From positions 1,736,001 through 1,800,000 of the forward strand of contig NZ_CP094466.1 in NCBI RefSeq assembly GCF_023347255.1: a stretch of 64,000 nt of DNA. Reading direction: 5' to 3'. The translations under genes and the position numbers were made by a program. Below are positions 52,431 to 64,000 of the stretch, one piece after another. The stretch comes from Faecalibacterium sp. I4-3-84 (GTDB lineage Bacteria; Bacillota; Clostridia; Oscillospirales; Ruminococcaceae). Every line of letters begins with the position of its first letter. Position 1 is the stretch's first letter. Below the pieces are notes generated by a model. It saw only the letters and a list, made by a program, of their open reading frames with translations, made no database searches and was not told where the DNA came from.

Positions 52431-53858
52431 ATGGAACAGATCCGCAGTGCCGATGTTCTGGCCAATTTTCCGCAGGTGGATGAGGAAAAACTGAACGCCG
52501 CCCTTGCCGCCGAAGCTGCCGCCAGCAACCGCAAGATCATTGTGCTGGACGACGACCCTACCGGCGTACAGACGGTACATGATATTTATGTTTATACAGA
52601 TTGGACGGTAGAAAGCCTGCGCAAGGGCTTTGCTGCGCCGGAAAAGCTCTTCTTTATTCTGACCAACAGCCGCGGCTTTACCGTGGCCGAGACCACCAAG
52701 GCCCACCGCGAGATCGCGGAGAACACCGCCAAGGTGGCCCGCGAGTTCGGCATGGACTACCTTATCATCAGCCGCGGCGACTCCACCCTGCGCGGCCACT
52801 ACCCGCTGGAGACCGATCTGCTGCGCGAGGTGACGGAGGCTGAGAACGGTTACAAAATGGATGGCGACATCCTGTGCCCCTACTTCCGCGAGGGCGGACG
52901 CTTTACACTGGACAACGTGCATTATGTGCGCTACGGCGCAGAGCTTGTGCCCTGCGGCCAGACCGAATTTGCCAAGGACGAGACCTTTGGCTACCACGCC
53001 AGCAACCTGTGCGAATACATTGAGGAAAAAACCGGCGGCAAAGTCCGTGCAGGAGACGTGACCTGCATCTCGCTGGAAAGCCTGCGCGCCATGGACTTTG
53101 ACGGCATCGAGGCCCAGCTGCTGGCGGTGCACGATTACGGCCATGTGATCGTGAACGCAGTGGCGGACTGCGACGTGAAGGTGTTTGCAGTGGCACTGTA
53201 CCGCACCATGGCAAAGGGCCGTCACTTCACCATCCGCAGTGCGGCCGCACTGGTCAAGGCCATCGGCAATATTTCCGACCAGCCGCTGCTCACCCGGGAA
53301 AAGATGGTCACGCAGGAAAGCAAGGCAGGCGGCATCATCGTGGTGGGCAGCCACACCAAAAAGACCACTGCCCAGCTGGAAGAACTGAAAAAAGTACAGG
53401 ACATCGAGTTTATTGAGATGGACAGCGACAAGGTGCTGGTGCCGGGCGAGCTGGAAAAGGAAGCAGCCGCCATCGTGGCCCACTGCTCACAGCAGATCGC
53501 AAAGGGCATCACCTGCTGCGTGTCCACAAAGCGCGTGGTGCTCACCCTGCCGGACGACACCCCGGAAGCAGCCCTCGTGCGCAGCGTTGCCATCAGCGAT
53601 GCACTGCAAAGCTGCGTGGGCAGGCTGACCGCTTCCCCGGCTTTTGTGGTGGCAAAGGGCGGCATCACCAGCAGCGACGTGGGCGTGAAGGCCCTGCGCG
53701 TGAAATGCGCCAAGGTGCTGGGCCAGATCCGGCCGGGCATCCCGGTATGGCAGACCGGTGCCGAAAGCCTGTTCCCCGGCACGCCGTACATCATCTTCCC
53801 GGGCAATGTGGGCGAAGTGCCCACCCTGCGGGAAGCGGTGGAAATTTTGCTGGGCTGA
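52431..53858 (+). CDS. Four-carbon acid sugar kinase (DUF1537/OtnK-like)
   Basis: 475 residues. N-terminal substrate domain with IIVLDDDPTGVQTVHD and ISRGDSTLRGHYPLE; C-terminal nucleotide domain with VAKGGITSSDVGVKAL and FPGNVGEV. Family members phosphorylate threonate, erythronate or 3-oxo-tetronate at C4. With the TRAP transporter and aldolase-family protein downstream this suggests catabolism of a tetronate-type sugar acid (inference). Good aaaggagga site. Confidence 0.9.
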   Translation: MEQIRSADVLANFPQVDEEKLNAALAAEAAASNRKIIVLDDDPTGVQTVHDIYVYTDWTVESLRKGFAAPEKLFFILTNSRGFTVAETTKAHREIAENTAKVAREFGMDYLIISRGDSTLRGHYPLETDLLREVTEAENGYKMDGDILCPYFREGGRFTLDNVHYVRYGAELVPCGQTEFAKDETFGYHASNLCEYIEEKTGGKVRAGDVTCISLESLRAMDFDGIEAQLLAVHDYGHVIVNAVADCDVKVFAVALYRTMAKGRHFTIRSAAALVKAIGNISDQPLLTREKMVTQESKAGGIIVVGSHTKKTTAQLEELKKVQDIEFIEMDSDKVLVPGELEKEAAAIVAHCSQQIAKGITCCVSTKRVVLTLPDDTPEAALVRSVAISDALQSCVGRLTASPAFVVAKGGITSSDVGVKALRVKCAKVLGQIRPGIPVWQTGAESLFPGTPYIIFPGNVGEVPTLREAVEILLG

Positions 53859-54386: not shown

Positions 54387-54707
54387 TCACTCTTTTTTGG
54401 CTTTCTTTTTCTTCTTTGCTGCCTTTTCCTCCGGCTTGTTCTTCATCAGCCTGCCGAGGGATGCGGCAGTGTATACGCAGAAGCAGCCCACCACCACGAT
54501 CAGCACGACGGCGCTTGCGTCCAGCGCCACGGTGCCGGCGCGGACAGCGGCCAGATACAGTGCCAGCAGCACAACGCCGCCGCCCAGCCACAGGCTGCTG
54601 CTGTTCACCTGCTTTTGCCACTCCTGCTGCGGCGTGAGCGGATGCTGCTGCGCCTTGCCCTGCCGGGCCTTCTTTTTCCAGATGTTATCACTTTGAAACG
54701 GATTCAT
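54387..54707 (-). CDS. Small two-segment membrane protein
   Basis: 106 residues. A polar N-terminus, two hydrophobic segments (about 38-57 and 63-83) and a strongly basic C-terminus (KAAKKKKKAKKE). No recognised family. Start follows ggaagga; a terminator follows at 54285-54320. Confidence 0.65.
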   Translation of the reverse strand: MNPFQSDNIWKKKARQGKAQQHPLTPQQEWQKQVNSSSLWLGGGVVLLALYLAAVRAGTVALDASAVVLIVVVGCFCVYTAASLGRLMKNKPEEKAAKKKKKAKKE

Positions 54708-54942: not shown

Positions 54943-55010
54943 AGCAAAGAACCTTTGCTGCGGGCTTGTCCGGCACGAGAACGCGAAAAACAAAAGGAGG
55001 CTTTTCCGTT

Positions 55011-55682
55011 ATGAAGGTAGGTCTGATCTATACCAGCACCACCCCGGAACTGATCGAACTGGTGGAGCAGGAGGTCAAAAAGCAGCTGGGCGATGATGTG
55101 GAGCTGTACAGCCTGCAGGACCCCAGCATTCTGGCAGATGTCCGCGCGGCAGGCTATGTGACCACTGCACCGGCAGCACGCCTGATCGGCATGTACATGA
55201 AAGCCGCTGAGGAAGGCGTGGATGCCATGCTGAACCTGTGCAGCAGCGTGGGCGAAGTTGCCGACAGCGCACAGGACGTGGCAAAGTACATTGGTGTGCC
55301 TATCGTCCGCGTGGACGAGGAGATGTGCCGCGAGGCTGTCCGCAAGGGCCAGCGCATCGGCGTGATGGCTACCCTGCCCACCACGCTGGAACCCACCAAG
55401 GGCACCATCCTGCGCATGGCCCGCGAGTGCAACAGGCACGTGGAGCTGGTGGACTGTCTGGTGGACGGTGCATTCGGTCTGGATCAGGACCAGTTCAAGG
55501 CCCGCATGACCGAGATGGCCGGTACCATTGCCGACAAGGTGGATGTGATCGTGTTTGCACAGGGCAGCATGGCCTACTGCGAACAGTATATCGCCGATAA
55601 GTTTGGCAAGGTGGTCCTCAGCAGCCCCCGCTTTGGTGCAGCCGAGCTGAAAAAGGCGCTGGAAAAGAAGGGCACCATTTAA
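55011..55682 (+). CDS. Asp/Glu/hydantoin racemase-family protein
   Basis: 223 residues. The fold is indicated by GLIYTSTTPELIELVEQE at the start, MLNLCSSVGEVAD with the first Cys, GVMATLPTTLEPTKGTI and IVFAQGSMAYCEQ. The usual second catalytic Cys position carries S/M here (AQGSMAYC), so racemase activity is uncertain; decarboxylases and isomerases share this family. Start at 55011 follows aaaaggagg. First gene of the TRAP operon. Confidence 0.75.
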   Translation: MKVGLIYTSTTPELIELVEQEVKKQLGDDVELYSLQDPSILADVRAAGYVTTAPAARLIGMYMKAAEEGVDAMLNLCSSVGEVADSAQDVAKYIGVPIVRVDEEMCREAVRKGQRIGVMATLPTTLEPTKGTILRMARECNRHVELVDCLVDGAFGLDQDQFKARMTEMAGTIADKVDVIVFAQGSMAYCEQYIADKFGKVVLSSPRFGAAELKKALEKKGTI

Positions 55683-55748: not shown

Positions 55749-56822
55749 ATGAAAAAGATGATTTCCCGTCGTGACTTCCTGAAGGTGGCTGGCATTTCCG
55801 CTGCTGCTCTGGGTCTGGCTGCCTGCGGCGGCTCCGGCACCAGCACTGCTGCTTCCACTGCCTCTACTGCAGCTTCCACCGGTTCTTCCGCTGCCGCTTC
55901 CGGCTCGGCTGTCACCCTGAAGCTGGGCTTCTCCACCAACGAAGAAGACCCCCGTGCAAAGGGCGCAAAGCAGTTTGCAGAAGAAGTTGCCGAAAAGACC
56001 GGCGGCGCTGTGGAAGTTCAGCTGTACCCCTCCGGCCAGCTGGGCGGCGATGCTGACCTGATCAACTCTATCGCTCTGGATTCCGGCACGGTGGATATCA
56101 TCATCACCGACGCTTCCAACTTTTCCACCTACGATGCAAAGATGGGCATTTCCGCACTGCCGTTCCAGTTCGAGACCTTCGACGATGCATGGGCATTCAT
56201 GGACAGCGACATCGAGGCTGCCGCTGAGGAAGGCCTGCTGAGCCAGAATATGCGTGTGCTGGCCCACTACTGCAACGGCTTCCGCTGCGTGACCAACTCC
56301 AAGGGCCCCATCAACAGCCCTGCCGACATGAACGGTCTGCTGATCCGCACCCCCGAGAACCCCGTCATCATGGCTACCATGACCGCTCTGGGTGCCAACC
56401 CCCAGCCGCTGAGCTTCTCTGAGCTGTATCAGGCTCTGCAGCAGAAGACCTACGATGCACAGGAGAACCCCATTCCCGTTATCTACAACAATAACCTCTA
56501 CGAAGTTCAGGAGTACCTGAGCATCACCAACCACATCTACTCCGGCATGTGCTTTACCATTGCCGAGAGCAGCTGGAACAAGCTGAGCGCTGACCAGCAG
56601 CAGATCGTTTCCGACGCTGCAAAGGCATCTGCCGATTACGACCGTGAGCTGAACGAGCAGCAGACCAACGATTTGGTCTCCGCTCTGGAAGAGAAGGGCA
56701 TGAAGATCAACAGCCCGGAACTGGCTCCGTTTGCAGCTGCGACCGAAAAAGTCCTGACCGACAACGCTGATACCTACGGCGACCTGCTGGATCAGCTGAA
56801 GGCATGGAAAGAAGCCCGCTGA
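55749..56822 (+). CDS. dctP: TRAP transporter solute-binding protein DctP
   Basis: 357 residues. N-terminus SRRDFLKVAGISAAALGLAA then C25 combines a twin-arginine motif with a lipobox, followed by a Ser/Ala/Thr linker. The DctP domain includes the ligand carboxylate Arg region GLLIRTPENPV and DAQENPIPVIYNNN. Binds an organic or sugar acid outside the membrane. Good aaggaga site. A hairpin terminator lies between it and dctQ. Confidence 0.92.
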   Translation: MKKMISRRDFLKVAGISAAALGLAACGGSGTSTAASTASTAASTGSSAAASGSAVTLKLGFSTNEEDPRAKGAKQFAEEVAEKTGGAVEVQLYPSGQLGGDADLINSIALDSGTVDIIITDASNFSTYDAKMGISALPFQFETFDDAWAFMDSDIEAAAEEGLLSQNMRVLAHYCNGFRCVTNSKGPINSPADMNGLLIRTPENPVIMATMTALGANPQPLSFSELYQALQQKTYDAQENPIPVIYNNNLYEVQEYLSITNHIYSGMCFTIAESSWNKLSADQQQIVSDAAKASADYDRELNEQQTNDLVSALEEKGMKINSPELAPFAAATEKVLTDNADTYGDLLDQLKAWKEAR

Positions 56823-56857
56823 GATCACTGACCAGAAAACCTTGAAATAAAACCGAA

Positions 56858-56900
56858 GCAAAGGGACGAGGGGGCGTGCCCTTCGTCCCTTTGCATTTTA
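56858..56900 (+). terminator. Partial terminator between dctP and dctQ
   Basis: gcaaagggacgagggg (56858-56873) pairs with cccttcgtccctttgc (56879-56894), 16 bp with one G-T pair, then attttat. Would let only part of the transcripts continue, giving more binding protein than membrane subunits. Confidence 0.75.
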
Positions 56901-56931
56901 TCTGAATCGCACTTGGAAAGGAGTTTGTACT

Positions 56932-57426
56932 GTGAAAAAACTGCAAACCACTCTGGACAAGATCACCACCCTCATTTCCGCCATTCTCTGCGCGGCTATG
57001 ATGGTAATTCTGTTCGCAAACGTTGTGCTGCGCCTGATCCCCGGCATCGGCGGCTTCAAGTGGTATATGGAGAGCAGCCAGTATCTGAACGTCTGGTCCA
57101 TGCTCATTGCCTGCATCGGCATCAACGCCATGGGTACCAACCTCCGCGTGGAAGTGGTGGATTCCATCCTTGGTAAGACTCCGCTGGGCAAAAAGATCGT
57201 TGTCATCATCCGTGATGTGTTCATCATCCTGTTCTACGTCATGGTCACCTACGGCGGCTACCAGCTGTGCACCCGCGCAAAGCAGGCCGTTTCCACCATG
57301 CCGCAGTTCACCATGGGTCAGGTGTACACCATCTTCCCCATTGCCGGTGTGCTGTGCATCCTGTCCGCCGTTCTCAACCTGATCGTTGAACTGACCGCAA
57401 AACCGGAAGGGGGCAAATCCAAATGA
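56932..57426 (+). CDS. dctQ: TRAP transporter small membrane subunit DctQ
   Basis: 164 residues, four membrane segments, GTG start after aaaggag. VVLRLIPGIGGFKWYMESSQYLNVWS-type region is the usual DctQ core. Overlaps dctM by 4 bases. Confidence 0.9.
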   Translation: MKKLQTTLDKITTLISAILCAAMMVILFANVVLRLIPGIGGFKWYMESSQYLNVWSMLIACIGINAMGTNLRVEVVDSILGKTPLGKKIVVIIRDVFIILFYVMVTYGGYQLCTRAKQAVSTMPQFTMGQVYTIFPIAGVLCILSAVLNLIVELTAKPEGGKSK

Positions 57427-58700
57427 TCGCATGGCTGCTGATCTCATTCTTTGTTCTGCTGTTTCTGGGTGTGCCCATCGCCATGAGTCTGGGCCTGTCC
57501 GCCATGGGCGGCATCTTGTTCCTAGGCGGCGGCAGCACCGTCACCATTGCCCAGCGCATGTTTGAGGGCATGAACAGCTTTGCACTGCTGGCCATCCCTC
57601 TGTACACCTTTGCCGGCTTCACCATGTCCAAGGGCGGTATTTCCAAGCGCCTGATGGACTTCTGTTACTCCATCGTCGGCCACATCTACGGCGGTCTGGC
57701 TCACGTGAACGTGCTTTCCAGCATGATCTTTGCGGGCATCTCCGGTTCCGCTGTTGCCGATACCGCAGGCGTTTCCGGTATGTTCATGCCGGAAATGGTG
57801 CGCAAGGGCTACTCCAAGAATTTTACCGTTGCCGTTACCGCCATTTCCTCCACCATCGGCATCATCATTCCTCCGTCCATCCCCATGGTGGTCATTGCCG
57901 GTATCTGCGGCATTTCCACCGGTAAGCTGTTCCTCGGCGGCATCATCCCCGGTGTCCTGTGCGGTCTGGCACAGATGATCGTCAGCTATTTCATGGCCAA
58001 GAAGGAAGGCGTGCCCAAGGAGCCGGGCCACTTCACCATCGGCCCCGTGCTGCATGGCCTGTGGGAGAGCTGGCCCGCCCTGCTCATGCCCATCATCATC
58101 GTGGGCACCATCACCATGGGCATCGTCAGCCCCACCGAGGCAGGCGTGATCGCTGTTGTTTACGGTCTGTTTGCCGGCGGCATCATCTACCGCGAACTCA
58201 AGTGGGAGGACATCAAGTTTGCCTTTGCAGAGACCGTCCGCACCAGCGGCCGTATCTTCATCGTTATCGGCGCTGCAAAGCTGTACACCGTCATGCTGAC
58301 CACTGCGGGCTTTGATAAGTGGGTGGCCAAGACCATGCTGGGCTTCTCCACCAACCCCACTGTCATTCTCATCATGATCCTGCTGATCTTCTTCATCGTC
58401 ACCATGTTCATGGAGTCCATCGCAACGCTGACCCTGTTCATGCCCATCCTGTATCCCATTGCTCTGGGTGTGGGCATCGACCCCATCGTGCTCAGCGTCC
58501 TGATCACCGTGGTCATCGGTGTTGGCCTGGTCACTCCTCCGGTGGGCATGTGCATTTACGTTGCCTGCGATCTGATGGATGTTACGGTCGGCGAGGTGTT
58601 CCCCACATTGGTGCCGTTTATTGCGGCCACCTTCGTCTGCATTGCGCTGATGGTCGCCTTCCCCCAGCTGATCCTGCTGCCCACCTATTTGATGGCGTAA
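57423..58700 (+). CDS. dctM: TRAP transporter large membrane subunit DctM
   Basis: 425 residues with about twelve membrane segments; GISGSAVADTAGVSGMF and IIIPPSIPMVV and GLVTPPVGMCIYVACDL are typical DctM motifs. Sodium-driven acid uptake with DctP/DctQ. Start overlaps the dctQ stop. Confidence 0.93.
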   Translation: MIAWLLISFFVLLFLGVPIAMSLGLSAMGGILFLGGGSTVTIAQRMFEGMNSFALLAIPLYTFAGFTMSKGGISKRLMDFCYSIVGHIYGGLAHVNVLSSMIFAGISGSAVADTAGVSGMFMPEMVRKGYSKNFTVAVTAISSTIGIIIPPSIPMVVIAGICGISTGKLFLGGIIPGVLCGLAQMIVSYFMAKKEGVPKEPGHFTIGPVLHGLWESWPALLMPIIIVGTITMGIVSPTEAGVIAVVYGLFAGGIIYRELKWEDIKFAFAETVRTSGRIFIVIGAAKLYTVMLTTAGFDKWVAKTMLGFSTNPTVILIMILLIFFIVTMFMESIATLTLFMPILYPIALGVGIDPIVLSVLITVVIGVGLVTPPVGMCIYVACDLMDVTVGEVFPTLVPFIAATFVCIALMVAFPQLILLPTYLMA

Positions 58701-58835: not shown

Positions 58836-59555
58836 ATGTCAATGGAACATCCTGAAAAACAGAAGAATGCGGTAAAGTCTGTAGTCGATCAGGTCATGGA
58901 TGGGATCATCTCCCAGATCATCGACGGCACCCTGCATCCGGGCGACAAGCTGCCTACCGAAATGGAACTGTGCAAGCAGTTCGGCGCGGGCCGCAACTCG
59001 GTGCGGGAAGCTGTGAAAAAGCTGCAGGCCTACGGCATCCTGTACATCAAGCGTGCCGACGGCACCTTTGTGAGCGAAAACTACAACCAGAAAATGCTGG
59101 ACCCGATGCTGTACAGCATCATCCTGCAGAAGAACAGCTGGCAGGAATTTGTGGAGCTGCGCTCCGTAATTGATATCGGTACGCTGAATATTATCATTCA
59201 GCGCAAGGATATCGCATCCTTTCTGCCGGACCTGTACCGCACCTTCGGCGAGCTTTCTGCCGAAATGCACTCGCCGGAGCCTTCGGTGGATAAGGTGCTG
59301 GAGCTGGACAGCCGGTTCCACACCCAGATCGCCAATGCGGCCCAGAACCCCATGCTGGCCACCATCACCGAGTACATCACCCGGCTGACGCTGCCCAGCC
59401 GTCTGGAGACCACCCGCAAGGTGCTTGCCAAGGGCGAAGCGGAGATCGAGCGGTTCGTAGAGCTGCACCGCCAGCTGCTTAGCGTGATCGAGCGCAGGCA
59501 GGTGGACGAGATCGCCGCTACAGTGCAGGATCACTACATCTTCTGGAAGAAGTAA
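58836..59555 (+). CDS. GntR/FadR-type transcriptional regulator with FCD domain
   Basis: 239 residues. N-terminal winged helix (LPTEMELCKQFGAGRNSVRE, then KLQAYGILYIKRADGTFVSE) and C-terminal FCD helical ligand domain with metal-binding pattern D..FH..I (LDSRFHTQIANAAQNPML) and H in DHYIFWKK. FCD regulators respond to organic or sugar acids. Placed between the TRAP operon and the BMC genes, so the likely controller of this regulon. Good ggaggcgg site. Confidence 0.9.
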   Translation: MSMEHPEKQKNAVKSVVDQVMDGIISQIIDGTLHPGDKLPTEMELCKQFGAGRNSVREAVKKLQAYGILYIKRADGTFVSENYNQKMLDPMLYSIILQKNSWQEFVELRSVIDIGTLNIIIQRKDIASFLPDLYRTFGELSAEMHSPEPSVDKVLELDSRFHTQIANAAQNPMLATITEYITRLTLPSRLETTRKVLAKGEAEIERFVELHRQLLSVIERRQVDEIAATVQDHYIFWKK

Positions 59556-59632: not shown

Positions 59633-59689
59633 AGCGTTAGCATCCTTTGTTAAGCTTCTCCAATGCGACATGCAAGGAGTGTTCATCCA

Positions 59690-60514
59690 ATGAAAAAAAT
59701 CATGATCTCCGTGGCCCCCGTTGCGGCCACAGACATTCTCATCAATCCGCGGGCCATTGCCCGGGATGTGTATGAGTGCTACAAAAACGGCGCGTCCATG
59801 GTGCATCTGCACTGCCGCGACCTGAACGGCAACCTCACCCCGGATCTGAGCCTGCTGGAAGAAACGGTGGCCTACATCCGCGAGATGTGCGACATCGTGG
59901 TGGAGATCTCCACCGGCGGCGTGTCCAACCTGACCATTGAGGAGCGCGTGCAGCCCTGCTACCCCTCCTGGGTGGAAGCCAACAGCCTGAATGTCGGCTC
60001 GGTGAATCTGGGTACCTCGGTGTACCAGAACCCCATCAAGGATGTGGAGTACTGCGTCAAGACCATCATGGACAACAAGAAGATCCCGGAGACCGAGGTC
60101 TTTGAGCTGGGCATGATCAACACCGTGCGGGAACTGAACGACAAGTTCCACTTTGTAAAACCCATCCTGTTTGCACTGGTGTTCGGCCATGGCGGCGAGA
60201 TGCCTGCCACGGTGCCGGCCCTGCGCCACATGATCCAGGCGCTGGAAGAGAACTTTCCCAACGGCGACTACCTGTGGGGCTACACGCAGGCCCACCGCGA
60301 GGACTGGGAAATGGTCAAGACTGCGCTGGATATGGGCGCTTCCACCGTGCGCATCGGCTTTGAGGATTCGGACATGATCGCGCCGGGTGTCCATGTGGAC
60401 AACAACGCAGCGCTGATCGCAAAGGTGTCGGACATCGTAAAGTCCAAGGGCATGATGCCCATGACTCCCGACGAGGTGCGCGCCATGCTCAAGATCCCGC
60501 CGCTGCGCCGTTAA
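59690..60514 (+). CDS. BKACE-family enzyme (beta-keto acid cleavage, DUF849)
   Basis: 274 residues. Landmarks: MVHLHCRD with zinc His residues near 40, EISTGG, NLGTSVYQNP, VFELGM, GHGGEMPATV and RIGFEDSDMIAPG. BKACE enzymes condense a beta-keto acid with acetyl-CoA to give acetoacetate and a new acyl-CoA; individual substrates differ widely. In a BMC locus it could feed or drain an acyl-CoA pool. The start at 59690 has aaggag upstream; 18 bases from the next gene. Confidence 0.88.
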   Translation: MKKIMISVAPVAATDILINPRAIARDVYECYKNGASMVHLHCRDLNGNLTPDLSLLEETVAYIREMCDIVVEISTGGVSNLTIEERVQPCYPSWVEANSLNVGSVNLGTSVYQNPIKDVEYCVKTIMDNKKIPETEVFELGMINTVRELNDKFHFVKPILFALVFGHGGEMPATVPALRHMIQALEENFPNGDYLWGYTQAHREDWEMVKTALDMGASTVRIGFEDSDMIAPGVHVDNNAALIAKVSDIVKSKGMMPMTPDEVRAMLKIPPLRR

Positions 60515-60532: not shown

Positions 60533-61477
60533 ATGGTGATTCAAGGCGTTACTTACCTCTCAGACTTTGAGGCAAAAAAAGCCATCATGGAAATGGCCCG
60601 TCGGCTGGAAGCCAAGGGCTGGCTGGTGGCCGGTGACGGCAGCATGAGCGTCCGCGTCGGACCGCAGGCCGTGTGGGTGACCGTTGCCGGTGCCGACAAG
60701 GCCGCGCTCACGCAGGATATGCTGGTGCGCGTGGATATGAATGGCAAGGCGATGCTCAGCGCAAAGCCCAAGCCCCTGCCCGAAGACCTGCCCATCCATC
60801 TGAAAATCTATCAGGAAAACGAGAACGCCCAGTGCGTGATGCACACCTATCCGGCCTGCGCGGCTGTGATGGGGATGCAGGGCCAGACCGTGCAGCCTGC
60901 AGCATTCAGCCCCGCAGTGCGGGCGCTGGGACGGGTGCAGCTGCTGCCCGCCCAGAACGTGGACGCACAGGCACAGGCTGTCAGCCTGTTGTGCCGCACC
61001 GATAAGGCTGTCCTGCTGGAAAATGACGGCTGCCTGACCTGGGGCAAGACCCCGGCAGATGCGGCCCATCTGGTGGAAGCACTGGATTACTACGCAGCCG
61101 TCACCGCAAAGCTGGGCTGCGCAGGCTGCTCCAAATGCGGCAGCTGCGGCGGTCACTGCACCGGCTGCAGCAAGTGCGGCGCACCTGCCGTGCAGCCCAT
61201 GGCTCAGCCCGCTGCACAGCCTGTGGCAATGGCAGTACCCTCCGCACAGCCTGCCCAGCCGGTGAGCCTGCCGGGCGTTACCGGGCTGATCCAGCCGGGC
61301 ATGGCGCTGCCCACCCTGCCCAAACAGCAGGCGGCTCCTGCCCCTGCCCCGGTGCCCGCCGCACAGCCTGCGGCAGTCCCTGCAATGGAAGCGGCCCCGG
61401 CCGCACCGAAGTCCGCAAATGCCCGCGATGCCGCAATGGCCGAGGTCATCCGCCGGACGCTGAAGAGCTTTCAATAA
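60533..61477 (+). CDS. Class II aldolase-like protein with altered metal site, Cys-rich linker and BMC targeting tail
   Basis: 314 residues. Residues 10-192 follow the FucA/AraD class II aldolase fold (GDGSMSVRV, LPIHLKIY, CVMHTYPACA, LLENDGCLTWGKTPADA, VEALDYYA). By spacing to FucA, the catalytic Glu is D85, the first zinc His is kept (H104), but the second is Y106 and the third is D165. Residues 196-215 have seven cysteines (C196, 199, 202, 205, 209, 212, 215), including ferredoxin-like CxxCxxCxxxC. After an Ala/Pro/Gln-rich linker, ARDAAMAEVIRRTLKSF is an amphipathic helix like an encapsulation peptide. It may be a decarboxylase-type relative such as OtnC, or a non-enzymatic Fe-S/scaffold protein. 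Confidence 0.75.
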   Translation: MVIQGVTYLSDFEAKKAIMEMARRLEAKGWLVAGDGSMSVRVGPQAVWVTVAGADKAALTQDMLVRVDMNGKAMLSAKPKPLPEDLPIHLKIYQENENAQCVMHTYPACAAVMGMQGQTVQPAAFSPAVRALGRVQLLPAQNVDAQAQAVSLLCRTDKAVLLENDGCLTWGKTPADAAHLVEALDYYAAVTAKLGCAGCSKCGSCGGHCTGCSKCGAPAVQPMAQPAAQPVAMAVPSAQPAQPVSLPGVTGLIQPGMALPTLPKQQAAPAPAPVPAAQPAAVPAMEAAPAAPKSANARDAAMAEVIRRTLKSFQ

Positions 61478-61532: not shown

Positions 61533-62978
61533 ATGGATATCAGTTCGCAGGAAATTGAAGCGATCGTCAAGCAGGTGCTTGCCGGTATGGGCGGTGCACA
61601 GACAAGCGCCGCCCCCGCAGCCTACACGGCTGCACCCGGCGGTGCAGCAGGCGACCGCGGCGTGTTCGAGAATGTAGACGATGCAGTGGAAGCTGCATGG
61701 AAGGCCCAGCGCGACTGGGCGGCCAACTACAAGATCGAGGACCGCCAGCGCATCATTGAAGCCATCCGCCGCTGTGCCCGCGCACATGTGGAGGAGTGGT
61801 GCCACAAGATCGTGGAAGAGACCGGCATGGGCCGCTATGAGGACAAGGTGGAAAAACATCTGGCCGTCATCAACAAGACCCCCGGCCCCGAATGCCTGAC
61901 CACCGAAGCCAAGAGCGGTGACGCGGGCCTGATGCTGGAAGAGTACGCACCCTTTGGTGTGATCTGCTCCATCACCCCCACCACCAACCCTACCGAGACC
62001 ATCATCAACAACACCATCAGCATGATCGCAGGCGGCAACACCGTGGTGTTCAACGTGCACCCCCGCGCAAAGCGGGTGTCTGCCGACTGCCTGCAGACGC
62101 TGAATACCGCCATCATCGAGGCGGGCGGCCCTGCAAACCTCATTACCATGACCCGTGAGCCGACCATGGAGAATGTGGACAAGATGGCCGCAAACCCCAA
62201 GATCCGCCTGATGGCAGGCACCGGTGGCATGGGCATGGTGAACGCCCTGCTGCGCAGCGGCAAAAAGTGCATCGGTGCCGGTGCAGGCAACCCGCCCGTC
62301 ATCGTGGACGAGACCGCAGACATCGAGCTGGCAGGCCGCAAGATCTACGAGGGCGCTTCGTTCGATAACAACATCCTCTGCTTTGCAGAGAAGGAAGTGT
62401 TCGCCGTGAACACCGCCTACGACGGCCTGCTGCACGAGCTGCAGAAGCAGGGTGCCTACCTGCTGAACAAGGCCCAGACCGAACAGCTGGTGAACATCGT
62501 GCTGCAGCCCAAGAAGGGCGGCGGCCACGAGGTGAACAAAAAGTGGGTGGGCAAGGATGCCGCCCGCATTCTGGAGACCATCGGCGTGCATGTGCCGGAT
62601 ACTTGCCGCCTTGCCATCTGCGAGGTGCCTGCCGACCATCCGTTCGTGCTGGTGGAGCAGATGATGCCGGTGCTGCCCATCGTGCGCTGCCAGAGCTTTG
62701 AACAGGCTGTGGAAGATGCCGTGGTGGCCGAGCACGGCAACCGCCACACCGCTTCCATCTTCTCCAAGGATGTGGACCACATGACCCGCTTTGCCCGGGT
62801 CATTGAGACCACCATCTACGTAAAGAACAGCGCCACCAAGGCCGGTGTTGGCATTGGCGGCGAGGGCCACTGCACCATGACCATTGCCGGCCCCACCGGC
62901 GAGGGCATCACCTGCGCAAAGAGCTTCTGCCGCCGCCGCCGCTGCATGCTGGCCGAGGGCGGGCTGCGCATCATCTGA
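61533..62978 (+). CDS. CoA-acylating aldehyde dehydrogenase, BMC type (PduP/EutE-like)
   Basis: 481 residues. N-terminal encapsulation helix SSQEIEAIVKQVLAGM (4-19) and Ala/Pro linker, then the NAD-binding half (EEYAPFGVICSITPTTNPT) and the catalytic Cys C283 in SFDNNILCFAEKEV. Converts an aldehyde to acyl-CoA inside the shell, recycling CoA with PduL. An aaagga site precedes the start. Which aldehyde is not determined. Confidence 0.93.
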   Translation: MDISSQEIEAIVKQVLAGMGGAQTSAAPAAYTAAPGGAAGDRGVFENVDDAVEAAWKAQRDWAANYKIEDRQRIIEAIRRCARAHVEEWCHKIVEETGMGRYEDKVEKHLAVINKTPGPECLTTEAKSGDAGLMLEEYAPFGVICSITPTTNPTETIINNTISMIAGGNTVVFNVHPRAKRVSADCLQTLNTAIIEAGGPANLITMTREPTMENVDKMAANPKIRLMAGTGGMGMVNALLRSGKKCIGAGAGNPPVIVDETADIELAGRKIYEGASFDNNILCFAEKEVFAVNTAYDGLLHELQKQGAYLLNKAQTEQLVNIVLQPKKGGGHEVNKKWVGKDAARILETIGVHVPDTCRLAICEVPADHPFVLVEQMMPVLPIVRCQSFEQAVEDAVVAEHGNRHTASIFSKDVDHMTRFARVIETTIYVKNSATKAGVGIGGEGHCTMTIAGPTGEGITCAKSFCRRRRCMLAEGGLRII

Positions 62979-63040: not shown

Positions 63041-63631
63041 ATGAAAGCTCTGGGTTTTATCGAGACGAAGGGTCTGGTTGGCAACATCGACGCTACCGAT
63101 GCAATGCTGAAGGCTGCTGACGTTGAGTTCATTGGTTCCGACACCATCGGTGCCGGTCTGACCACCGTGATCGTTACCGGCGAGGTGGGCGCTGTCAAGG
63201 CTGCTACCGAGGCTGGCGAAGAGGCTGCTTCCCGCGTGGGTGAGCTGTTCTGTGTCAACGTCATTGCACGTCCTCACGCAGATCTGGCCCGCATCATGCC
63301 CGCCAAGGGCCCCGCGACCGGCAAGTCCGGCCTGCCCGCAGGCGAGCAGGTGCCGCTGGATGCCGCTCTGGGCATGATCGAGACCAACGGCCTGACCGCT
63401 TCCATCGAGGCAGCCGATGCCATGCTGAAGAGCGCAGATGTCTCTCTGGTGGGTCAGGAGAAGATCGGCGCAGGCCTTGTTACCGTGTTCGTGCAGGGCG
63501 ACGTTGGCGCTGTGAAGGCTGCTGTTGAGGCAGGCCAGACCGCTGCTTCCCGCATTGGCGAAGTGGTCAGCGCACTGGTCATTCCCCGCCCGCACGCAAG
63601 CGTGTCCGAGTGCATGCCTGAGCTGCGCTGA
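63041..63631 (+). CDS. Tandem BMC-domain shell protein (BMC-T)
   Basis: 196 residues with two BMC folds: about 1-90 ([20 protein letters not shown], then [20 protein letters not shown]) and about 107-192 ([20 protein letters not shown], then [20 protein letters not shown]). Forms pseudohexameric trimers tiling the compartment shell; such proteins often carry a gated or Fe-S pore. No pore cysteine is evident here. Good caggaggaa site. Confidence 0.93.
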
Positions 63632-63670: not shown

Positions 63671-64000
63671 TTGGTTTACCATGACATCAGTCAGGAACAG
63701 CTGCTGCTCCTGATCACGCAGGCCGTGCAGGCAGAGCTGCAAAAGCGCAGCCGTCAGGTGCCGGTAGGCATCTCGGTGCGGCACATCCACCTTACCCGCG
63801 ATGATGTGGACAAGCTGTTCGGCTATGGCTACCAGCTCACCCCCAAAAAGGCGCTGAGCCAGCCCGGCCAGTTTGCCTGCGAGGAATGTCTGGACATCAT
63901 CGGCCCCAAGGGCGAACTGAAGCATGTCCGCATCCTTGGCCCGGAGCGCAGTGCCACTCAGATCGAGCTGGCGCAGACCGACTGCCGCAACATCGGCATC
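63671..64000 (+). CDS. pduL: PduL-type phosphotransacylase (partial, cut by window end)
   Basis: 110 codons visible, TTG start with aaaggag 9 bases upstream. VPVGISVRHIHLTRDDVDKL holds the zinc-binding His pair, followed by QPGQFACEECLDIIGPKGEL and VRILGPERSATQIELAQTDC, all PduL landmarks. Converts acyl-CoA to acyl phosphate and frees CoA within the compartment. The N-terminal helix ISQEQLLLLITQAVQAELQ may be its encapsulation peptide. Confidence 0.92.
   Translation, partial: MVYHDISQEQLLLLITQAVQAELQKRSRQVPVGISVRHIHLTRDDVDKLFGYGYQLTPKKALSQPGQFACEECLDIIGPKGELKHVRILGPERSATQIELAQTDCRNIGI

Follow-up and report, generated by a model that had tools for sequence, protein, structure and literature searches.

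A zinc-less class II aldolase-like microcompartment protein, possibly a disused aldolase retained in the compartment core

The 314-residue class II aldolase-like microcompartment protein encoded at 60533..61477 (+) of the window, by which we mean the whole 64,000-nucleotide stretch of DNA analysed here, lacks the zinc site of its family. It has probably ceased to be an ordinary sugar aldolase, and probably now either helps to build a core or is an enzyme of a new kind. Our leading interpretation, to which we give slightly less than an even chance, is that the protein was once a microcompartment class II aldolase and has been kept as a non-aldolase encapsulated core (scaffold) protein. It is unlikely to act as a FucA-type aldolase, because two zinc His, the phosphate-side residues and the C-terminal part have been lost, the substrate side has become free to vary, and its divergence is the fastest of those compared. 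A frozen D/H/Y/D/C set of residues and an unusually conserved N-terminal part indicate that something in the protein is still selected. Microcompartments are classed largely by their aldehyde-making enzyme, and this protein occupies that enzyme's slot with a site found in none of 26 canonical relatives.

The open reading frame was borne out, with an ATG start. Pfam Aldolase_II (PF00596) matched residues 17-190 (E 1.8e-31, 109.9 bits against a cut-off of 22.2) as the sole Pfam domain, and a whole-genome search found no other PF00596 match in the genome. Assembly error can be set aside because another genome of this species encodes an identical protein. The aldolase-fold domain spans residues 1-192 (60533..61108, +; delimited by AlphaFold2, Foldseek and site columns) and contains the rebuilt site D85, H104, Y106, D165 and C167. 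It is followed by a Cys-rich segment (Cys 196-215; 61118..61177, +; defined by Cys counts in the protein and its orthologues), a Pro/Ala linker (61178..61417, +) and an encapsulation-peptide-like C-terminal helix (residues 296-313; 61418..61474, +), predicted by AlphaFold2, with comparable termini on the orthologues and on many of the canonical relatives. The sequence-only reading had described a FucA-type fold, a microcompartment association and a Pro/Ala linker leading to a C-terminal helix. The Pfam and Foldseek FucA matches, the position of the gene within a microcompartment operon and the predicted encapsulation-type helix bear out each of these points.

We aligned the 14 intact orthologues (the window protein plus 13; alignment A1) and joined them with 26 canonical relatives in a 40-row alignment (A2). 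Several of the related loci are metagenome assemblies; L066, whose reading frames are in pieces, was left out of the alignments, and L048, identical to the window protein, was left out of both alignments and rates. D85, H104, Y106 and D165 had earlier been placed by spacing at FucA E73, H92, H94 and H155, a zinc and catalytic numbering that we take over from that reading. The alignment agrees with the placement, with E/H/H/H at these four columns in 26/26 canonical relatives. D85, H104, Y106, C167 and W170 were invariant in 14/14 orthologues, and D165 was present in 13/14, with E in L061; the canonical rows have A, V, T or S at the C167 column. H104 is the only one of the three zinc His that is kept, the other two being absent from all 14 intact orthologues, and D85 stands at the catalytic Glu in 14/14. 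The catalytic Glu and two of the zinc His have therefore been replaced as claimed, throughout the aligned orthologues. A zinc His set elsewhere in the protein was ruled out, since its only His are 89, 104, 179 and 208.

We take N29, T43, S71 and S72 to be the phosphate-binding residues of FucA. The phosphate-site columns 37, 52, 83 and 84 never held the canonical residue in the 14 orthologue rows, and further switches were N37 to S/C, S55 to D and E127 to P. The columns of T52, S83, S84, M88, T111 and Y140, each kept in at least 23 of the 26 canonical rows, were variable in the orthologues. These patterns indicate a metal side altered to a new, fixed state and a phosphosugar side left free to vary. 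When 16 site columns were taken out before the tree was computed, the orthologues, all 14 of them, still formed one branch, with support of 100/100 and a stem length of 0.93 changes per column. The presence of the substitutions in all 14 orthologues of a single branch supports the scaffold reading, as do columns 52, 83, 84, 88, 111 and 140, which vary and are never canonical.

The same site also speaks against a scaffold: four residues are invariant and D165 nearly so in an otherwise drifting half-domain, which a pure scaffold need not show. The fixation of the new residues favours instead an active enzyme with a rebuilt site, in which D85, H104 and D165 (with Y106) would bind either a harder metal (Mg, Mn or Fe) or no metal and C167 would take part. 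We consider this a substantial possibility, though well below even. The variable substrate-side residues count against it, as does the broken copy in L066, in which a fragment reads E at the D85 position and Q at the H104 position.

The AlphaFold2 model, built on A2, had block-mean pLDDT values of 92-98 up to residue 190, except for one block at 84. The values dropped to 70 for residues 191-200 and 47-56 over 201-240, and were 72-76 over 241-280. No secondary structure was predicted from residue 198 to 295, although a bound cluster could order the segment. After the low-confidence linker, the helix at 296-313 lay in blocks with means of 67 (291-300), 89 (301-310) and 84 (311-314). The region of raised confidence at 241-280 includes a short conserved linker motif, GVTxLIxPG (residues 248-256; window 61274-61300), found by regular expression in 12/14 orthologues and in 2/26 canonical rows (L003 and L062); it is possibly a binding motif. 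The best Foldseek matches were class II aldolases, YgbL, ribulose-phosphate epimerase and the non-haem iron enzymes POD, TqaM and NovR, and PDB titles of the FucA mutants E73Q, N29Q and S71Q were among the matches. That the fold already hosts non-haem iron enzymes favours the rebuilt-site enzyme. Both the alignment and the model show that the C-terminal subdomain of canonical relatives (~30-40 residues) is missing here, which weighs against that enzyme. A control model of the canonical protein of L062 had an extra helix at 207-219, within a confident region that follows the long helix. The zinc-less protein has no counterpart of this helix, and its absence adds support to the scaffold reading.

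The zinc-less protein evolves differently from its canonical relatives. Across 13 loci, its domain had a mean identity of 53.8% compared to 74.3% for the acylating aldehyde dehydrogenase (AldDH), and was the higher of the two in 1/78 pairs; the canonical compartment aldolases showed the reverse (78.3% vs 70.8%, aldolase higher in 19/20 pairs, these being the pairs with AldDH identity of 62-90% among the 120 pairs of 16 loci). The pairs in these rate comparisons share loci and are not independent, and L065 was left out of them. Among 11 locus proteins (up to 66 pairs) the zinc-less protein was lowest at 54.8%, compared to GntR at 60.8, NOX at 62.6, the racemase family at 78.9, BKACE (beta-keto acid cleavage enzyme) at 79.1 and DctM at 86.4. 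The protein's rate of change, formerly below that of AldDH, has thus become the highest among the operon proteins compared. The divergence was unevenly placed: residues 1-72 were 72% identical among orthologues vs 55% among canonical rows, residues 73-192 were 42% vs 53%, and the whole of 1-192 was 53% vs 54%, values of which the pattern and not the levels should be compared because the canonical set is broader. The reversal of the rates and the opposite behaviour of the two half-domains both support the scaffold reading. The fast divergence, opposite to that of canonical aldolases, is a point against the rebuilt-site enzyme.

With AldDH as query, we found 18 related loci at 61-86% identity. 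When these were annotated with the window's proteins, a gene of the zinc-less type lay between BKACE and AldDH, intact in 13 loci and in pieces in L066, where BKACE, AldDH, DctP and PduL were in pieces as well. L062 and L063 have a canonical aldolase and no BKACE. L049 starts at AldDH, and another contig of its genome encodes a zinc-less type protein that has the D and Y residues. L055 has BKACE and AldDH with no aldolase-type gene between them, and the matches in its genome were all of the canonical motif. L055 thus does without the gene, which supports the scaffold reading and speaks against the rebuilt-site enzyme. That AldDH and BKACE keep their motifs across the rows compared also supports the scaffold. 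The absence of the gene from L055 and its fast divergence might also suggest that the gene is a decaying leftover without a role. We regard this as highly improbable: 14 aligned orthologues have an intact frame in the same slot, with BKACE on one side and AldDH on the other, the invariant residues, the unusually conserved N-terminal part and the end helix are kept, and the only broken copy seen sits in the otherwise fragmented L066 locus.

A scan of the genome contigs with the protein itself as query confirmed no relative. An A1 profile at E 1e-50 had matches in 2/396 genomes sampled from the window's family, namely the window's own and one canonical protein. In a phylum sample of 398 genomes there were 39 matches, and of the 30 fetched, all 29 besides the window's had the canonical motif. 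AldDH was present in 2/31 genomes of the genus, both of the same species. The titles of the contigs carrying orthologues include Firmicutes, Clostridia, Eubacteriales, Lachnospiraceae and Pseudoflavonifractor, a spread that makes it likely that the gene either moved between families or was lost repeatedly.

The Cys-rich tail had been read as a gained, ferredoxin-like linker coupled to the loss of zinc. The seven Cys are present directly after the domain and include CxxCxxCxxxC (Cys 196, 199, 202, 205, 209, 212 and 215; the remaining Cys of the protein are 101, 109, 154 and 167), and seven Cys in 20 residues were reached by only 1/20,000 shuffles of the protein. The spacing CxxCxxCxxxC occurred once in the window protein, in 1/14 orthologues (the window's only) and in 0/26 canonical rows. 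Tail Cys after residue 192 numbered 7-13 in 10/14 orthologues; all nine rows of an inner clade had at least seven, as did L056. With 0-2 in the other four (L053, L054, L059 and L064), the cluster is not conserved, and the coupling to zinc loss fails, since the substitutions are fixed, the cluster is not, and canonical relatives are also Cys-tailed. Tails of at least 60 residues were present in 15/26 canonical rows, and 12 of these 15 had 3-7 Cys, with those of the subdomain and end helix counted, which makes it doubtful that the Cys linker was gained. We conclude that the tail is probably not a replacement metal site, because tail Cys are common in compartment aldolases with an intact zinc site and dispensable in the zinc-less clade. 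A ferredoxin-like centre in place of zinc was rejected as the main reading on the spacing and on the four orthologues that lack the cluster; the AlphaFold2 block means over residues 191-220 (70, 56 and 52) also mark the segment as low-confidence.

Could the tail nonetheless hold an Fe-S cluster and make the protein a redox carrier in the compartment? The density and spacing of the Cys in the window protein are in its favour, and so is a flavoprotein of the CoA-disulfide-reductase/NADH-oxidase kind in the operon. Loci that lack the cluster (L053, L059 and L064) have the flavoprotein too, and it was rejected as a partner of the Cys tail. Together with the single occurrence of the spacing, the scarcity of tail Cys in 4/14 orthologues and the low-confidence segment, this leaves such a carrier quite improbable. 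The sequence-only reading had offered a redox or scaffold role, and the scaffold half of it leads here.

A search for repeats over 61090-61260 turned up one 25-base pair. It lies in the linker (61199-61253) and outside the Cys stretch, and on this result an origin of the Cys stretch from DNA repeat slippage was rejected. The canonical compartment aldolases L005, L009, L010 and L014 have a HPGCxxC...CxC motif in the linker, and L011-L013 have HPGCPQC only. The HPGCxxC...CxC motif is a possible metal site of its own.

The gene lies in an operon that reads on the plus strand. Upstream are a DUF1537 acid-sugar kinase family protein (52431..53858, +; PF07005/PF17042), found in 4/18 related loci, several of which end early upstream, and probably accessory; an Asp/Glu/hydantoin racemase family protein (54966..55682, +; PF01177), present in the related loci that reach that far upstream; the TRAP transporter DctP, DctQ and DctM (55749..58700, +; PF03480, PF04290 and PF06808), with its order kept in those reaching that far; a GntR/FCD regulator (58836..59555, +); and BKACE (59663..60514, +; PF05853, E 6e-59). 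The HLH motif of BKACE, which presumably has a metal role, was present in 14/14 rows. Downstream are AldDH (61533..62978, +; PF00171, PRK15398 above cut-off), which has a helix-like N-terminal extension and the FDNN-motif Cys, taken by us to be catalytic, in 18/18 rows; a fused tandem BMC shell protein (63041..63631, +); and a PduL phosphotransacylase (63671..64000, +; NF011652 above cut-off), which runs out of the window to L002:4328. Beyond PduL, on the same strand, follow BMC-P, the CoA-disulfide-reductase/NADH-oxidase-like flavoprotein and Fe-ADH, and the operon thus holds all three enzymes expected of a metabolosome: AldDH, a PduL-type transacylase and an alcohol dehydrogenase. A small divergent ORF without a Pfam match (54387-54707, -) lies just upstream of the racemase gene. 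It has counterparts of ~100-160 residues at L050:1095-1586 (-), L052:1191-1502 (-), L053:1037-1408 (-), L055:2218-2568 (-) and L064:1301-1609 (-); the copies of the related loci match one another in two groups, and the window copy resembles that of L052 by eye.

This setting bears on what a rebuilt site would do. The enzyme would cleave or decarboxylate a non-phosphorylated keto or hydroxy acid imported by TRAP and yield an aldehyde for AldDH. Its gene stands in the slot of the class II aldolase signature enzyme of GRM5, PVM and ACI compartments, as two surveys describe them (PMC4207490, PMC8217296), and it encodes the only Aldolase_II protein of the genome. A second aldolase doing the work was not found in the genome, and without activity of the zinc-less protein the operon has no obvious aldehyde-forming enzyme, which is a further point against the scaffold. 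L062, with its canonical aldolase, lies beside a sugar PTS (EIIA, EIIB and EIIC-GAT), and the loci of the zinc-less type have TRAP and BKACE. This agrees with the loss of the phosphate site and with a move away from phosphosugars, under the scaffold and enzyme readings alike.

A whole-genome PF00936 search (E 0.001) found a single gene, the 196-residue fusion, in which two stretches match EutM-like domains (EutM model best), and no BMC-H; one BMC-P was found in the window's genome, to which the genome-wide search for it was confined. The fused gene was the only PF00936 gene in 6/16 related genomes (G667, of the window's species, G822, G824, G825, G826 and G817); these include the genomes behind L049, L052, L058, L060 and L061. 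G827 had one short PF00936 match; the fusion was accompanied by other BMC genes in G820, G821, G823, G818 and G816; and G828, G829, G830 and G831 had separate BMC genes. Separate genes resembling the two halves of the fusion were present in L053, L056 and L064 (four) and L059 (two). The fused BMC genes at L054:3395-4009 and L055:9515-10102 have a different joining segment, and L054 branches outside the main fused clade; these are possibly a second, independent fusion.

In the 2021 catalogue, a main locus was counted only with a BMC-H, of which none was found in this genome, and each type was said to have a basal BMC-H (PMC8217296). Loci like this one could have been missed because of that demand. 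One paper came up in a literature search on shells without BMC-H. No paper that links DUF849, BKACE or beta-keto acid cleavage to a microcompartment turned up in the literature searched, and the supplementary locus tables of the catalogue may list the operon type; across the loci, the BKACE gene within the microcompartment operon had 79% mean identity. The fuller proposal that D85/H104/Y106/D165 and C167 form a new active site, with a hard metal or none, that turns a non-phosphorylated keto acid into the aldehyde, and that the BKACE-linked microcompartment is of a kind not yet described, with shell hexagons from the fused BMC pair only, is in our judgement rather unlikely. With no BMC-H gene found for the shell, and with unfused and fused states preserved in relatives, it can be tested how fused tiles arose and whether they suffice.

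If the zinc-less protein is the scaffold that we favour, the zinc and phosphosugar site would have disappeared in the ancestor of a single type of operon, the protein itself being retained. FucA is a tetramer. The zinc-less protein may still be a FucA-type oligomer, with several tail helices, and Cys segments where present, on each particle. It could gather AldDH and PduL, whose N-termini are also helix-like, and tie both to the shell in the manner of the carbonic-anhydrase-like CcmM of beta-carboxysomes. The Cys segment would play an accessory part, adjusting assembly through disulfides or metal binding, and the frozen D85/H104/Y106/D165/C167 set could be a structural network or a ligand pocket at the former metal place. 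There is precedent for the elements of this scheme: a scaffold or regulator role was suggested for the defunct second AldDH in GRM1 loci (Axen et al., PMC4207490), and the oligomeric domain and redox-active Cys modules of CcmM organise a compartment (PMC8580825). As for the source of the aldehyde, many compartment types have no obvious signature enzyme (PMC8217296). A literature search on class II aldolase and pseudoenzyme found only PMC4207490. The scaffold and the rebuilt-site enzyme make opposite predictions for one purified protein. If the former is true, a signature enzyme has turned core-organiser, a metabolosome parallel to CcmM; if the latter, new metal chemistry has arisen on a well-studied fold.

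Among known systems, the class II aldolases (PF00596) of GRM5, PVM and PVM-like compartments resemble the zinc-less protein in fold, in an operon shared with BMC genes and AldDH, in a Cys-bearing tail and in the end helix. The nearest canonical rows, L003, L062 ([Clostridium] asparagiforme) and L063, which we read from their loci as GRM5/PVM-like types, share a DFEAKKAI start with it, and L003 and L062 also share GVTxLxxPG. Unlike the zinc-less protein, GRM5/PVM-like aldolases keep E/H/H/H, the phosphate-side residues and the C-terminal subdomain, and they outconserve AldDH in 19/20 pairs. FucA (L-fuculose-1-phosphate aldolase, 1FUA) has the same fold (Foldseek E 5.9e-12, 19% identity), from which the zinc-less protein differs by the absence of two of three zinc His, the catalytic Glu, the phosphate site and the C-terminal part. 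YgbL/OtnC (3-oxo-tetronate 4-phosphate decarboxylase) also shares the fold (6vop), and a DUF1537 kinase occurs in some of the zinc-less loci too. The zinc site of OtnC is missing, and membership was rejected at 56.8 bits, far under the NCBIfam equivalog cut-off of 250 (NF043034). POD, TqaM and NovR bind iron through three His on the same fold, and their titles show that metal and chemistry are changeable on it; their three His are not kept in the zinc-less protein. CcmM of beta-carboxysomes offers a works-like comparison only, in which an enzyme-like oligomer domain and redox-active Cys modules organise cargo (PMC8580825). We claim no homology to CcmM, and the protein compared with it is known here from its sequence and a model in which the Cys segment is of low confidence.
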